Source: Methylocystis sp. MJC1
GTDB taxonomy: Bacteria; Pseudomonadota; Alphaproteobacteria; Rhizobiales; Beijerinckiaceae
Assembly (NCBI RefSeq): GCF_026427715.1
Contig: NZ_CP107558.1
Coordinates: 2,145,001-2,209,000, forward strand
DNA: 64,000 nucleotides
Direction of reading: 5' to 3'
Under the pieces are notes generated by a model. It worked only from the letters and a program-made list of their open reading frames with translations, made no database searches and had not been told where the DNA came from. The position numbers were made by a program, and so were the translations under genes. Positions 34,219 to 39,109 of this stretch are shown here, piece after piece. Within the stretch, counting starts at the first letter, position 1; the number at the start of each line of letters is the position of its first letter.

Positions 34219-35154
34219 ATGTCCATGACGGAAATTATCTTCCGCGGCCCGAAGGATCCGAAAGAGTTTCCCAATTGGCGTTTCGAAACGCTGGATATCG
34301 ACTACGACCGCGAAACAGCCTCGGTCTGGATGAATTATCGCGTCGACGCGCCGCAATGCTACACGCCGACCATGCTCGCAGAGCTGCTGCAGTTGCGCGA
34401 TTCGCTCAGGGTCTTCGGCGCGTCTGGTCGGACCGAGGAATTTCCTTTCGGTTATCTCGTCATGACGGCAAAGCGGCCGGGCGTCTTTTCGCTGGGAGGA
34501 GACCTGGCTACATTCGCCGCGGCGATCCGGCGCCAGGATCTCGCGACCTTGGTCACCTATGCGCACGCCTGCGTCGATCTCGTCTATGGTTACTCTCAGA
34601 GCCTCGATCTGCCGATCGTCACGCTCTGCGCCGTGCAGGGACAATGCCTCGGCGGCGCGCTCGAGGCGGCGCTCGCATTCGACTTCATTATCGCCGAAGA
34701 GAATGCGACCTTCGGCCTTCCCGAAGTCGCCTTCAATACTTTCCCGGGCATGGGCGCGGTGACGATGCTCACCCGCCGTGTGGGCTCCGCCCTCACCCAA
34801 CAGATCATCATGAGCGGCGAAACTTATACGGGCCGCCAGATGTTCGAGCTCGAAGTGATCGATCAGGTCACTTCGCCCGAAAACATCCGCGCGGCCGCGG
34901 TCGAATGGATGCACGATCTCGGCGGCAAAAAATGGCGACGCCGGCGGGCCATCGCCGAAGCTCGGCGCCGCAGCCACCCCGTTACCCATGACGAGCTCAT
35001 CCGGATCACGGAGCTATGGGCGGAATGCTCCGCCCGTATCGAAGAACGCGACTTGCGCCATATGGAAAGACTGGTGCGCGCCCAGAACCGTTTGATCGGC
35101 GCGCGACAAAAGGCTCCTGAGGGAGAGCGAATTCTGGTATCGAGCTCTTCGTGA
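34219..35154 (+). CDS. rpfF: RpfF-type DSF (cis-2-enoic fatty acid) synthase, crotonase superfamily
   Basis: A 311-residue crotonase-fold enzyme. Its closest pattern is RpfF: FSLGGDLATFAAAIRRQD at 88-105, VQGQCLGGALEAALAFDFII at 137-156 and GLPEVAFNTFPGMGA at 164-178. The two glutamates that RpfF uses for hydrolysis and dehydration of 3-hydroxyacyl-ACP (Glu141 and Glu161 in Xanthomonas) align with Glu147 and Glu167, with the same spacing of 20. Ordinary enoyl-CoA hydratases lack the NxFPGMGA stretch. It should make a cis-2-unsaturated fatty acid signal. The stop overlaps the GTG of a c-di-GMP enzyme gene. Confidence 0.82.
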   Translation: MSMTEIIFRGPKDPKEFPNWRFETLDIDYDRETASVWMNYRVDAPQCYTPTMLAELLQLRDSLRVFGASGRTEEFPFGYLVMTAKRPGVFSLGGDLATFAAAIRRQDLATLVTYAHACVDLVYGYSQSLDLPIVTLCAVQGQCLGGALEAALAFDFIIAEENATFGLPEVAFNTFPGMGAVTMLTRRVGSALTQQIIMSGETYTGRQMFELEVIDQVTSPENIRAAAVEWMHDLGGKKWRRRRAIAEARRRSHPVTHDELIRITELWAECSARIEERDLRHMERLVRAQNRLIGARQKAPEGERILVSSSS

Positions 35155-37469
35155 AGACAAGGGAACAAGGGATGAAGGCCAAAGTCTCGACCAATCCCAG
35201 ATCCGCCGCGGACGCGGAAATTTACGCGGATCTCGTCGAGACTCTGTTCGACACGACGCACTCGCTCGTCACGGGCATTTTCTCGGGCGTCCTGGTTCCC
35301 GCAATCGGCTGGTTTTCAACCGGAGAAATGCCCTATCTCTGGCTGATGGCGCTGATGTCGTTGATCGGCGTCTATCGCGTTCATGTCTTGCTTTCCCATG
35401 ATCGCGCGCCGATCGAGGGGCGTCGCCGGGATGCCGCGATTTGGGAGCGGCGCTACGCGGTCGGCGCGATAAGCTTTATGGTGACGCTCGGGGTCGCCAC
35501 CGCAATATTGTTCAACTACCACCAAAACGAAATTGCGGCCTATTACGGCGTCATCATCATGACCGGCGTGACGGGGAATCTCGCGGCCCGCAACGCCGCG
35601 CGCCCGAATATCGTGTTCTGGCAGATGATGGGCACCTGCATGCCCCTTGCCTTCACGCTGATTTTCAATTTTTCGCCCTGGTATTGGGGCATCTCGGCGT
35701 TTCTAGGGTTCGGCGCGCTGGCGGTCTTCAAGACCACAAAATTCCTGAAGAACATCATCGTGTCGGCGCTTCGCAATGGTCGCGACGCCATGCGGCAGCG
35801 CCAGAAGTTCAGCATCGCCCTGAACTCCATGACCCATGGGCTTTGCATGGGCGACTCTTCGCTGACCATCTCGGTGATGAACCGGCGCATTGTCGAATTT
35901 TTCGGGATTGTCGCCGCCGCCACGCCGATCAGACTCGACGCGCTGGCGCACGCCATTGGCCGCACCGCCAATATGTCCCCAGCGGAGATTGACGAATTCA
36001 CGGAGCTTTGGGTGCGGCACGCCGCTATGCCGCAGGCGACCGTGTTCTTGCGAAGAATCGGGGAACGCTATTTCAACTTTCACTGCGAGCGCGCCGAGGG
36101 CAACGCTTTCGTAACGGTCATTGAAGATGTGACGACCCAGCAACGGGCGCTGCGCGAAATCGAGCGCATCGCCCATTTCGACGAGCTGACCGGCCTCCCC
36201 AATCGCTATCATTTCCAGGATGCGCTCGGCGCGGACATGCTCCGCCTCGGCGTTACCGAGGAGACGGCCGTCCTGATCACCGTCGATCTCGATCGCTTCA
36301 AGGAAGTTAACGACACGCTCGGCCATATGGTCGGCGACAAGCTGCTCGCCCACGTCGGCGCGCGGCTCAGCGCTTGCGCGCCGACGCCCAATCTCGTGGC
36401 GCGGCTGGGAGGCGACGAATTCTGCGTCTTGATGCGGGCGCCGCACGAAACGTCGCAGATCGACGCAATGACCAGCCGCATCCTGAAAGAATTGAGCCGC
36501 CCCTTCCAGATCGACGGCCATCGCATCACGGTCGGCGCGACGATCGGCCTCGCGATCGCGCCGCAGGACGCCGACACCCCCATCGGCCTGCTCAAATGCG
36601 CCGATCTGGCCCTTTACGAAGCCAAATTGGAGGCTCGCGGGACTGCGGTCCGATACACCCCCAAGATGCAGGACGCCTTGCTCGAGAAGCGCGCCATCGA
36701 GGAAGAACTCCGCGAAGCGTTGGTCAAAGACGAGCTGGCGCTATTCTATCAGCCGATCGTCGATTCCCGTCGCGGCGCGATCGTCGCGATGGAGGCGCTG
36801 GTTCGCTGGCGCCATCCCCAGCGCGGCACCATCTCCCCCGGCGTCTTCATTCCGGTCGCCGAACAGACTGGCTTGATTGTCGAAATCGGCGCGTGGGTCT
36901 TGCGGCGGGCCTGCCAGGACGCGGTCGCCTGGCCGCGCCATGTCCGAGTCGCCGTCAATCTCGCGCCGAAGCAGTTCCATCAGGCGGACCTCATCGACAC
37001 GATCAAGATGGCGCTCGATGAGAGCGGTCTCGACCCCGACAGGCTGGAGCTCGAAATCACCGAGTCGACACTGATCAGCAACACGGATGACATCCAGGCG
37101 AAGCTCGCCAAAATCGACGCCCTCGGCGCACGGCTGTCTCTCGACGATTTCGGCACCGGCTACAGCAGCCTGAGCTATCTGAACCGCTTCCCTGTGAAGA
37201 AGGTCAAGATCGATCAAGCCTTTTCGCGTCAGGCGATTGAGTCCCCCAAGACCCAAGCGATCATCAGCGCCATTTCGGCGCTGGCGAACGACCTCGATCT
37301 CGACCTTGTTGCGGAGGGCGTGGAAACCCAGGCTCAGCTCAGCTTCATGGCGAGCAAAAACATCTTCTTGATCCAGGGCTTCCTTTACAGCAGGCCGCGC
37401 CCGATCGAGGAGCTTGCGCCGCTCCTCGAATGCTGGAACGACGCGCCGCGGCTCGAAAGCGCCGCCTGA
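35151..37469 (+). CDS. Membrane PAS-GGDEF-EAL c-di-GMP turnover protein
   Basis: A 772-residue protein, or 765 from ATG 35172. Residues 35-205 hold several hydrophobic segments (GIFSGVLVPAIGWF, AISFMVTLGVATAILF, PLAFTLIFNFS), giving a membrane input domain. A PAS-like domain follows (ALNSMTHGLCMGDSSLTISV), then GGDEF with an intact motif near residue 421 and EAL (MEALVRWRHPQ near 546) with LDDFGTGYSSL, VKIDQAF and AEGVET intact. The RxxD inhibitory site before GGDEF is absent (PTPN). Both activities look possible. Coupled to the DSF synthase gene, it is the candidate receptor, as RpfR is in Burkholderia, but with a different input domain. Confidence 0.88.
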   Translation: MKTREQGMKAKVSTNPRSAADAEIYADLVETLFDTTHSLVTGIFSGVLVPAIGWFSTGEMPYLWLMALMSLIGVYRVHVLLSHDRAPIEGRRRDAAIWERRYAVGAISFMVTLGVATAILFNYHQNEIAAYYGVIIMTGVTGNLAARNAARPNIVFWQMMGTCMPLAFTLIFNFSPWYWGISAFLGFGALAVFKTTKFLKNIIVSALRNGRDAMRQRQKFSIALNSMTHGLCMGDSSLTISVMNRRIVEFFGIVAAATPIRLDALAHAIGRTANMSPAEIDEFTELWVRHAAMPQATVFLRRIGERYFNFHCERAEGNAFVTVIEDVTTQQRALREIERIAHFDELTGLPNRYHFQDALGADMLRLGVTEETAVLITVDLDRFKEVNDTLGHMVGDKLLAHVGARLSACAPTPNLVARLGGDEFCVLMRAPHETSQIDAMTSRILKELSRPFQIDGHRITVGATIGLAIAPQDADTPIGLLKCADLALYEAKLEARGTAVRYTPKMQDALLEKRAIEEELREALVKDELALFYQPIVDSRRGAIVAMEALVRWRHPQRGTISPGVFIPVAEQTGLIVEIGAWVLRRACQDAVAWPRHVRVAVNLAPKQFHQADLIDTIKMALDESGLDPDRLELEITESTLISNTDDIQAKLAKIDALGARLSLDDFGTGYSSLSYLNRFPVKKVKIDQAFSRQAIESPKTQAIISAISALANDLDLDLVAEGVETQAQLSFMASKNIFLIQGFLYSRPRPIEELAPLLECWNDAPRLESAA

Positions 37470-38159
37470 TCATCGGCGCGCTATGTCGACGATCGGCCGC
37501 CGATCGATCGGCGGTTCGGCCATGCGCTGGGCCCGAAAAATCGCGTGGGACGCATTATAGCGCCTGTCAAATTGCGCGAGATAAGTCGAAATCCCGGTGA
37601 AGTCGGGCTGCGCGGCGACAACATCCCTTACCAGCATCAAATCATGCGCCTCGCCGGGCGAGAGGATATGCTCGCTTTCGATCAGCCGCTCTGTCTTGGA
37701 GAAGCCAATCCGGCGACCGACGGCGGCATAAAGGCCGAGAAGATCGAAGGGTTCGCCCGCAAAAGAAAATTGTGCGCCCGCCTCCGCCACGATCGCGGCG
37801 CAGTTCATGGCAAAATCAAAGTCTAGCCCACTGAGAAGCGACCGCGCCCAAGCGATCGTGATGACGGGCGTGTCGATGATCAGCTCGGCGTTGGCCGCGA
37901 CCATCTCTGTGAAACCCTCAGGGGTCATCGCCGAGTCGGCGCCGCCTTCACGGAAGTCGAACACCAGAAATCTCAGCTGCGGTTGCTCGCCACAGGCGAT
38001 CTCACGCAGAAGCGCAGAAATCTTGTAGACGCTGGCGCGATCGAACCCCGGCTGCGTCTTGGACAGGACGAGCGCTTCGCGCTGCCGCAGCCAATGCGTC
38101 CGAACACTGGATGAAGTATTTGAAAAAGCAGACCAATCCTTACTCGAAACAACTCTCAT
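37470..38159 (-). CDS. Crotonase-fold protein with altered catalytic positions
   Basis: A 229-residue protein resembling the second half of RpfF/enoyl-CoA hydratase folds. LRFLVFDFREGG, ITIAWARSLLSGLDFDFAMNCAAIVAEAGAQFSF and the region to RRIGFSKTERLIESEHILSPGEAHDL align with the RpfF core, including the turn before the oxyanion region. The position of the first catalytic Glu is Asp115 and the FPGMGA stretch is missing, so it is either a different enzyme or a binding protein. Its stop abuts the stop of the GGDEF-EAL gene. A CtrA-type full site lies 20 bp upstream of its start. Confidence 0.65.
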   Translation of the reverse strand: MRVVSSKDWSAFSNTSSSVRTHWLRQREALVLSKTQPGFDRASVYKISALLREIACGEQPQLRFLVFDFREGGADSAMTPEGFTEMVAANAELIIDTPVITIAWARSLLSGLDFDFAMNCAAIVAEAGAQFSFAGEPFDLLGLYAAVGRRIGFSKTERLIESEHILSPGEAHDLMLVRDVVAAQPDFTGISTYLAQFDRRYNASHAIFRAQRMAEPPIDRRPIVDIARR

Positions 38160-38179
38160 GACGGCCTCTACTCTAACAG

Positions 38180-38260
38180 TTAAGAAAAGCTTAACGCAAA
38201 GGTAGAAAAATGGCTAAGGTCAATTAACCCTCCACCGCGACTCGACGCGGATATGGTTAA
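38180..38260. promoter_or_regulatory. CtrA-type binding sites upstream of the crotonase-like gene
   Basis: TTAA-GAAAAGC-TTAA at 38180-38194 is an exact TTAA-N7-TTAA full site, within the 17-bp palindrome GTTAAG-N5-CTTAAC. Half-sites follow: TTAACC at 38224-38229 and, on the minus strand, TTAACCAT at 38260-38253. In a GC-rich genome three such matches within 80 bp are unlikely by chance. The full site lies 20 bp upstream of the minus-strand gene start. The remaining gap to 38539 shows no gene and presumably holds the promoter of the secreted-protein gene. Confidence 0.65.
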
Positions 38261-38539
38261 CGGGAGAACCGCTGTTGGATGAGGAAGGCCATGAGAACGT
38301 GCGCCAATCTCGCCGGCTCTCGTAAAGCGTCTGTCGATCTGTGGCCGAAGGTCGCAAGACAGACGCCTCGAAATTGATATATGCTAACCACGGGTTGTCG
38401 GTCGCGTTCTTCGCTCATTGGCGCAAGGTCGCGATTGTCTTATCGCCGGGACGCGCGCCCCTGGATGGCGCGCTGGTTAGACAAAGCCGCTCGGCAAAAA
38501 GAAGAAGCGGCGCAAGGTTTGTTCAAAGGGAGGAACAGA

Positions 38540-39109
38540 ATGAAAATGCGCTTTTTCGTCGCCATGACGCTGGCGACGGTCGGTTGGGTCGCCCAGGCGC
38601 ACGCGCATGGCGACGTCGGCTCCAACCAGGGCCAGTGCCTGATGAAGATCGGCCCTGACACGATGAGCTTTACGGGCTATCAGCCGCTGAAATCGCGCGA
38701 GCAATTTTGCGACGACATTCCGGACGCCGGCCCCACCATCATTACGCTCGACGCTCAGCAGGACGAGCTGCGCGACATGAACCTCGAGATGCGCGTGCTG
38801 CGCGACGTCGGCCAGAAGGACGACAACGAGAATCTCGAGGCGAACACCGAGTATTTCTCGCCGCCGAAGAAGTATAAGACCGGCACGCTGACCTTCGATC
38901 ACAATTTCCAGAAGGAAGGCAAATATATCGGCATCGTGAAGGCCAAGAGCGACGACGGCACGAAGGAATATGTCGCCCGCTTCCCCTTCTCGGTCGGCCT
39001 GACCGCCACCAAGGACATCACCATCGCGGTGTTCTTCGCAGCTTTGGCCGCTGTCGGCTTTGGCCTGTGGTACAAGGCTCAGTTTGTGGACAAGAAGAAG
39101 GCGTCCTGA
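38540..39109 (+). CDS. Secreted, C-terminally membrane-anchored protein of unknown function
   Basis: A 189-residue protein from ATG 38540, with GGGAGG upstream. It has a signal peptide (FFVAMTLATVGWVAQAHA) and a mature start HGDVGSNQGQCLMKIG, followed by SREQFCDDIPDAGPT, so there are two conserved-looking cysteines. A beta-rich domain follows and the protein ends in one membrane helix (ITIAVFFAALAAVGFGLWY) and a short Lys tail. Similar proteins occur, as I remember, in ammonia oxidisers and methanotrophs, which suggests a role at the periplasmic face near copper enzymes. I cannot name the family and do not assign a reaction. Confidence 0.75.
   Translation: MKMRFFVAMTLATVGWVAQAHAHGDVGSNQGQCLMKIGPDTMSFTGYQPLKSREQFCDDIPDAGPTIITLDAQQDELRDMNLEMRVLRDVGQKDDNENLEANTEYFSPPKKYKTGTLTFDHNFQKEGKYIGIVKAKSDDGTKEYVARFPFSVGLTATKDITIAVFFAALAAVGFGLWYKAQFVDKKKAS

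Follow-up and report, generated by a model that had tools for sequence, protein, structure and literature searches.

We report that three adjoining genes of Methylocystis sp. MJC1 may form a diffusible signal factor (DSF)-type fatty-acid signalling module with an extra, separately controlled RpfF-like pseudo-synthase, a reading on which our confidence is evenly poised. The genes lie in a stretch of 64,000 nucleotides (hereafter, the window), i.e. positions 2,145,001-2,209,000 of contig 1 of the 4.54 Mb genome. The features of the locus, numbered within the window, are as follows:

34219..35154, + strand: gene 1, RpfF-type crotonase (putative cis-2-enoic fatty-acid signal synthase), 311 aa; E149/E169, GGD, FPGMGA and W267 intact
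35151..37469, + strand: gene 2 (GEL), membrane protein with six transmembrane (TM) segments and PAS_7, GGDEF and EAL domains, 772 aa, GTG start
37470..38159, - strand: gene 3 (DCR), RpfF-derived crotonase-fold protein, 229 aa; without the RpfF catalytic apparatus and C-terminal segment
38179..38195, strand not assigned: CtrA-type box GTTAA-N7-TTAAC in the DCR promoter

The stop codon of gene 1 lies inside the GTG start of GEL (4 bp overlap at 35151), and DCR is convergent with GEL, the two stop codons abutting with 0 bp between them. An original prediction made on this DNA had described an RpfF-type gene whose stop overlaps the start of a PAS-GGDEF-EAL gene, a membrane input with several helices, and a tail-to-tail crotonase-fold gene with Asp at the first catalytic position and no FPGMGA stretch. 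These observations are confirmed here, while the interpretation placed on them is partly supported.

Gene 1 groups with RpfF-type synthases

In gene 1, Pfam detected ECH_1, and the NCBIfam model PRK08788 matched with 279 bits, above its cut-off of 177. The closest solved structures are the RpfF-type entries 3m6m, 5fus, 6dgn and 7zq7, and the best PDB match, 3m6m, is a solved RpfF-REC complex. Numbered from the ATG at 34219, gene 1 has the landmark residues E149, E169, G93 G94 D95, FPGMGA 175-180 (F175-A180) and W267, each of which is common to 40 to 43 of 43 RpfF rows. The pair of catalytic Glu residues predicted originally is present; the original numbering, 147 and 167, is shifted by 2, which fits a start at ATG 34225.

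Two trees of 72 and 77 rows contained RpfF (43 and 46 rows), DCR (15 and 17) and enoyl-CoA hydratase (14) sequences. In both trees, RpfF and DCR were split from the enoyl-CoA hydratases at 100/100, the 311-aa protein standing with the RpfFs. Its placement among ordinary hydratases, named alongside the original prediction as grounds for refutation, was thus not seen. In total, we conclude that gene 1 is, judged by its sequence, an RpfF-type enzyme, signal production being putative.

DCR is a degenerate RpfF relative that co-varies with RpfF

In DCR, the crotonase fold is intact, and the match to Pfam ECH_1 is below threshold (17 bits; cut-off 27). The first catalytic position is occupied by Asp (residue 115) and the FPGMGA stretch is disrupted. 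Across 140 DCR rows, the aligned second catalytic Glu was found in none, both the oxyanion-loop GG and the conserved C-terminal Trp column were gaps in 140/140, and G146 of the second motif was replaced in 139. Thus, in these rows DCR does not have the second catalytic Glu, oxyanion GG, FPGMGA stretch and C-terminal Trp segment of a functional RpfF. Because these central catalytic parts are lost in all 140 rows, degradation of the signal by DCR, which had been suggested originally, is unlikely by RpfF-type chemistry. The dN/dS ratio (nonsynonymous to synonymous substitution rates) of DCR is 0.12-0.28, with dS >0.8 in five of six pairs. We conclude that DCR is an RpfF derivative under purifying selection.

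The RpfFs of the three-gene loci (trios) formed a single clade (16 rows, 100/99), and so did the DCRs (17 rows, 100/99); the locus L071 (genome G017; L and G numbers are our identifiers for loci and genomes) was represented in the trees by its RpfF row only. With the hydratases as root, RpfF and DCR both branched in the order Bosea, Aestuariivirga, a Caulobacteraceae metagenome-assembled genome (MAG), Methylocystaceae (89/68 to 100/96), and pairwise distances of RpfF and DCR had a correlation of 0.94 (15 genomes, relatedness not corrected). The Caulobacteraceae MAG was placed inside Hyphomicrobiales in the RpfF and DCR trees alike, which, if its label is right, would be consistent with the trio having been transferred as one.

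GEL belongs to a membrane PAS-GGDEF-EAL family that accompanies RpfF

Pfam detected PAS_7, GGDEF and EAL in GEL, and the domain search detected no kinase domain. By alignment and by eye, the GGDEF motif and the usual EAL motifs are intact. Hydropathy revealed six hydrophobic segments (residues 39-199), a number shared by 12 of 14 aligned relatives, GEL included, with five in L066 and L087. No Pfam family matched the TM domain above cut-off. When a profile of this domain was run against 61 related genomes, matches >180 bits were obtained in 27, every one of which has RpfF, and among the 28 RpfF genomes G046 alone had no strong match. The RpfF and GEL-type genes adjoin in 25 of the 27; in G003 and G032, contig ends part them. 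The TM domain as such is not confined to partners of RpfF, since lower-scoring relatives of it (37-127 bits) are present in other proteins. The sensor gene is split into two frames in L083 (G023), where RpfF and DCR are intact, and in L154, where DCR is shortened.

The TM profile matched RpfC-like rows with E 0.27 or worse, giving no hidden Markov model relation to the RpfC input. Similarly, a profile of the RpfR FI domain, built from L198-L200, found no such domain in the GEL family (best E 0.25 on ten 6-TM proteins). The PAS residues S169, N172, Y183, R187 and N202 bind the Burkholderia-type signal (BDSF) in Cronobacter RpfR, as described in passages of PMC6361424; in GEL, no match to these residues was seen by eye in a single low-identity MAFFT alignment.

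The RpfF-type enzyme could instead be a household acyl-acyl carrier protein (ACP) dehydratase or thioesterase, the membrane protein sensing internal fatty acids or the state of the membrane without any intercellular signal; the intact RpfF landmark residues and the steady pairing with a cyclic di-GMP (c-di-GMP) protein speak against this explanation, and we consider it rather improbable.

The trio recurs in several families and on plasmids

With RpfF counted at an identity of at least 50%, 24 of 37 Methylocystis genomes have RpfF and all 24 also have DCR, the G032 copy carrying an in-frame stop; conservation of the genes together, the comparison proposed alongside the original prediction, was therefore observed. 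One further genome, G001, has DCR, with the contig breaking off within GEL, and RpfF was not found in it. Neither gene is present in 12 of the 37, among them G024 and G033 with a very diverged RpfF. In these two genomes (L090 and L089), the diverged RpfF (28-29% identity) forms a tandem with a member of the GEL family, and no DCR match was found. Among the 25 DCR-bearing genomes of the genus, 20 have all three genes in order on a single contig (with GEL frame-broken in G023), and contig ends split the trio in G003, G010 and G032.

A scan of named genomes returned 23 loci, many from the same genus genomes, of which 17 have the whole trio; the other six are at contig ends (L144, L150, L155), at a contig end with broken GEL and DCR (L154), or have DCR alone in the stretch seen (L156, L163). 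Of ten DCR-bearing genomes searched, all except G001 have RpfF at some location. Beyond the genus, the trio is present in Methylosinus (L159, L160), the Caulobacteraceae MAG (L162) and Aestuariivirga litoralis (L121), as well as on the Bosea megaplasmids pANAM02 and pBSY19_1. Methylosinus loci have flanks in common with the window. Around L085 and L162, eleven flanking queries from the window found nothing, and at L121 their sole hits were weak ones to ABC transporters, 8 kb off; therefore, the trio is not kept together by its neighbourhood alone. A neighbour divergent from DCR (38381-39109), without a Pfam family, is retained beside DCR in Methylocystis and Methylosinus, and had no match around L085, L121 or L162. 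The stop codons of DCR and the sensor gene are -4 to 267 bp apart in the 14 loci measured.

In other alphaproteobacteria, a member of the 6-TM sensor family lies tail to tail with RpfF (L087, L133, L138, L139, L232). Several other arrangements were seen. In L122, L123, L126, L127, L129, L130, L132, L134, L135 and L140, RpfF has a different GGDEF-EAL protein ~2.5 kb away; in L123, the sole locus of that group checked, this protein is REC-PAS-GGDEF-EAL. In L204 (family f81), RpfF and an RpfC-like hybrid kinase lie tail to tail; the N terminus of the kinase (RSDTEHVQ) resembles RPDSEHGQ of the xanthomonad-type kinase L195. In L206, RpfF is in tandem with a MerR-PAS-GGDEF-EAL protein.

DCR promoters contain a CtrA-type box

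The sequence GTTAA-N7-TTAAC at 38179-38195, ~36 bp upstream of the DCR ATG, is the single exact match in the window, with 0.01 expected by chance. The CtrA sites of the original prediction thus come down to one full and real box, with GTTAAC half-sites seen nearby. Genome-wide, seven exact matches were found versus two for a reversed control pattern. The other six are near flagellin/fliF, a PAS protein, lptF/aminopeptidase M17, ftsK and a transglutaminase-like protease, and in one unclear place. Flagellar genes and ftsK are CtrA targets, and because boxes lie near such genes, the set looks like a CtrA regulon. The box upstream of the transglutaminase-like cysteine protease (L229; PF06035) is exact, and this family includes LapG-type biofilm proteases.

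Allowing a spacing of 6, 7 or 8, a box matching at least 9/10 positions is present in 27 of 30 DCR promoters, many of them from one close clade, compared with 1.3% in letter shuffles and none of 26 RpfF promoters; L085, L159 and L162 are those without it. Among the 27 boxes, the spacing is 7 in 10, 8 in 16 and 6 in one, and each of the two Bosea DCR genes has a 9/10 box near -36, again spaced by 7. More exact N7/N8 boxes than reversed-control matches were counted in G018 (11/4), G021 (6/1), G030 (8/4) and G008 (11/2). In the DCR genomes of the genus, flagellin is present in 7/7 with spacing 7 and 0/15 with spacing 8. This count leaves out G009, which has flagellin and spacing 6, G034, which has no flagellin and a box matching at 8/10, and the unscored G032. 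A single split in the tree accounts for most of the association. In total, these observations indicate a conserved CtrA-type box in DCR promoters, which is a candidate CtrA site.

A proposed mechanism and its alternatives

From its family and intact residues, RpfF would turn 3-hydroxyacyl-ACP into a free cis-2-enoic acid. Given the tandem gene order and the pairing of RpfF with the 6-TM family, GEL would sense this signal, or its own synthase, and set the level of c-di-GMP. DCR was observed to descend from RpfF, to have lost catalytic elements, to be under purifying selection and to be inherited along with its partners, and we infer that it would act through binding rather than RpfF chemistry, most likely through a heteromeric contact with RpfF or the membrane protein. 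Finally, the box in DCR and not RpfF promoters suggests that CtrA may bind there and would time DCR expression, gating the module by cell cycle or motile state.

In known systems, restraint of the synthase is built into the sensor. The N-terminal FI domain of RpfR binds RpfF and is proposed to block its tunnel, according to parts of PMC6361424, and RpfC restrains DSF synthesis, as stated in sections of PMC5391125. Because known sensors restrain RpfF and GEL has neither the FI domain nor the RpfC part, DCR is a natural candidate for this function, which its contact would provide. More specifically, DCR might be a CtrA-timed pseudo-synthase that mixes into RpfF oligomers or caps RpfF, toggling signal production with cell-cycle or motile state as a trans-acting substitute for the RpfR FI and RpfC parts, in a three-gene cassette found across alphaproteobacterial families and plasmids; we advance this version tentatively, as a possibility that falls well short of probable.

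Several observations weigh against the reading of the locus as a DSF-type module with a pseudo-synthase. Gene 1 scores 171 bits on the NCBIfam RpfF equivalog model, the cut-off of which is 550; however, among 398 phylum genomes, of which 62 have a hit at 1e-30, only three exceed the cut-off, and the RpfFs adjoining RpfR genes in L198-L200 score 180-183 bits, so this cut-off is a narrow yardstick. The 4-bp overlap of RpfF and GEL is found in 5 of 16 loci measured, with tandem gaps of 3-90 bp in the others. In G036 (L070), the trees conflict with support, as RpfF groups with that of the window (100/97) and DCR with L072/L073 (100/100), which implies one or more exchanges of partners; the pattern is as if RpfF, or RpfF with the sensor, had been swapped between lineages with DCR staying. 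As for the box, its spacing is 8 in a single Methylocystis clade (15 promoters), and in three of seven other genomes (G005 9/9, G036 3/3, G222 9/8) there is no enrichment of exact N7/N8 boxes over the reversed control.

The distribution of DCR adds to these points. In G031, DCR is ~2 Mb from its partners, and in L156 and L163 both partners of DCR are missing from the stretch seen, RpfF being elsewhere in the genome. When up to seven candidates per genome were scored with the DCR profile, 52 of 397 order genomes matched at 1e-8, with a full-length DCR in three (G000, G009, G222), all 19 others fetched being RpfFs; 22 of 385 class genomes matched at 1e-15, with a full-length DCR in the genome of the window alone. 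The trio is not the rule in the class. The rarity of DCR outside trio lineages, its separation from its partners in G031, L156 and L163, and the in-frame stop in G032 would suit a chance neighbourhood or a decaying pseudogene. This explanation is strongly disfavoured, and in our judgement very improbable, because DCR is under purifying selection and the trio is conserved across families and on plasmids with differing neighbourhoods.

Two further alternatives concern how DCR works. Acidic residues are retained near both catalytic positions (D/E115 in 140/140 rows, D/E136 in 128/140) and D113 has been gained, so that DCR may have an altered enzymatic activity. Its active site could have been rebuilt (D113, D/E115, D/E136, R106) so as to alter or eliminate the fatty-acid signal, as its new conserved polar residues (140 rows), purifying selection and intact fold would allow; the lost oxyanion GG and C-terminal Trp, the replaced G146 and the disrupted FPGMGA count against such an enzyme, as does C120, which is constant across the 140 rows and not kept in Bosea copies, and we regard it as unlikely. 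We likewise give little credence to DCR being a signal-binding buffer or co-receptor that ferries cis-2-enoic acid to the membrane protein without touching RpfF. Its descent from a fatty-acyl-handling enzyme and its convergence with the sensor gene would agree with that role; however, the loop deletions and lost C-terminal segment would be expected to open the acyl pocket, and DCR co-varies closely with RpfF.

Comparison with known systems

DSF signalling is mostly known from gamma- and betaproteobacteria. Full-text searches of the open-access literature, outside which most subscription papers lie, found no paper on rpfF in Methylocystis, none that joins RpfF, RpfR, GGDEF, Alphaproteobacteria and diffusible signal factor, and none on RpfF as a pseudoenzyme; three papers name both diffusible signal factor and CtrA, with a single DSF mention apiece, and among the matches listed, no title or abstract start concerned the trio itself. 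The main text of an alphaproteobacterial c-di-GMP survey does not contain 'RpfF', 'enoyl' or 'crotonase' (PMC9756655). If the proposed module is correct, the 6-TM PAS-GGDEF-EAL protein would be a third DSF receptor architecture, an RpfF-derived pseudoenzyme would have a role in signalling, and in methane-oxidising bacteria the CtrA circuit would be tied directly to a fatty-acid signal.

PaaF-PaaG provides a precedent for paralogous crotonases that share a complex, judging by the title of PDB entry 4fzw; these proteins are catabolic enzymes, both of them catalytic, rather than a signalling pair. The RpfF/RpfR system (BDSF; Burkholderia, Cronobacter) likewise links the genes for an RpfF-type synthase and a PAS-GGDEF-EAL protein. 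However, the Burkholderia parallel drawn in the original prediction fails in its details: rpfF and rpfR are convergent there and not overlapping, as far as sections of PMC6361424 and PMC4504480 describe them, whereas here the sensor gene follows rpfF in tandem and DCR occupies the convergent slot. Moreover, RpfR has the FI domain and is described in part of PMC5391125 as soluble, whereas GEL has six TM segments and no FI domain was found in it. The RpfF/RpfC-RpfG system of xanthomonads (DSF) shares a membrane sensor beside rpfF and a c-di-GMP output, but RpfC joins a 5-TM input to a histidine kinase, whereas GEL has no kinase domain and its TM region no profile relation to that of RpfC. The closest likeness in the sensor is to the convergent alphaproteobacterial RpfF/6-TM pairs (L087, L133, L138, L139 and pMRAD01 of M. 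radiotolerans), which have the same sensor family beside RpfF; they differ from the trio in being two genes tail to tail, with no DCR seen in the stretch fetched.

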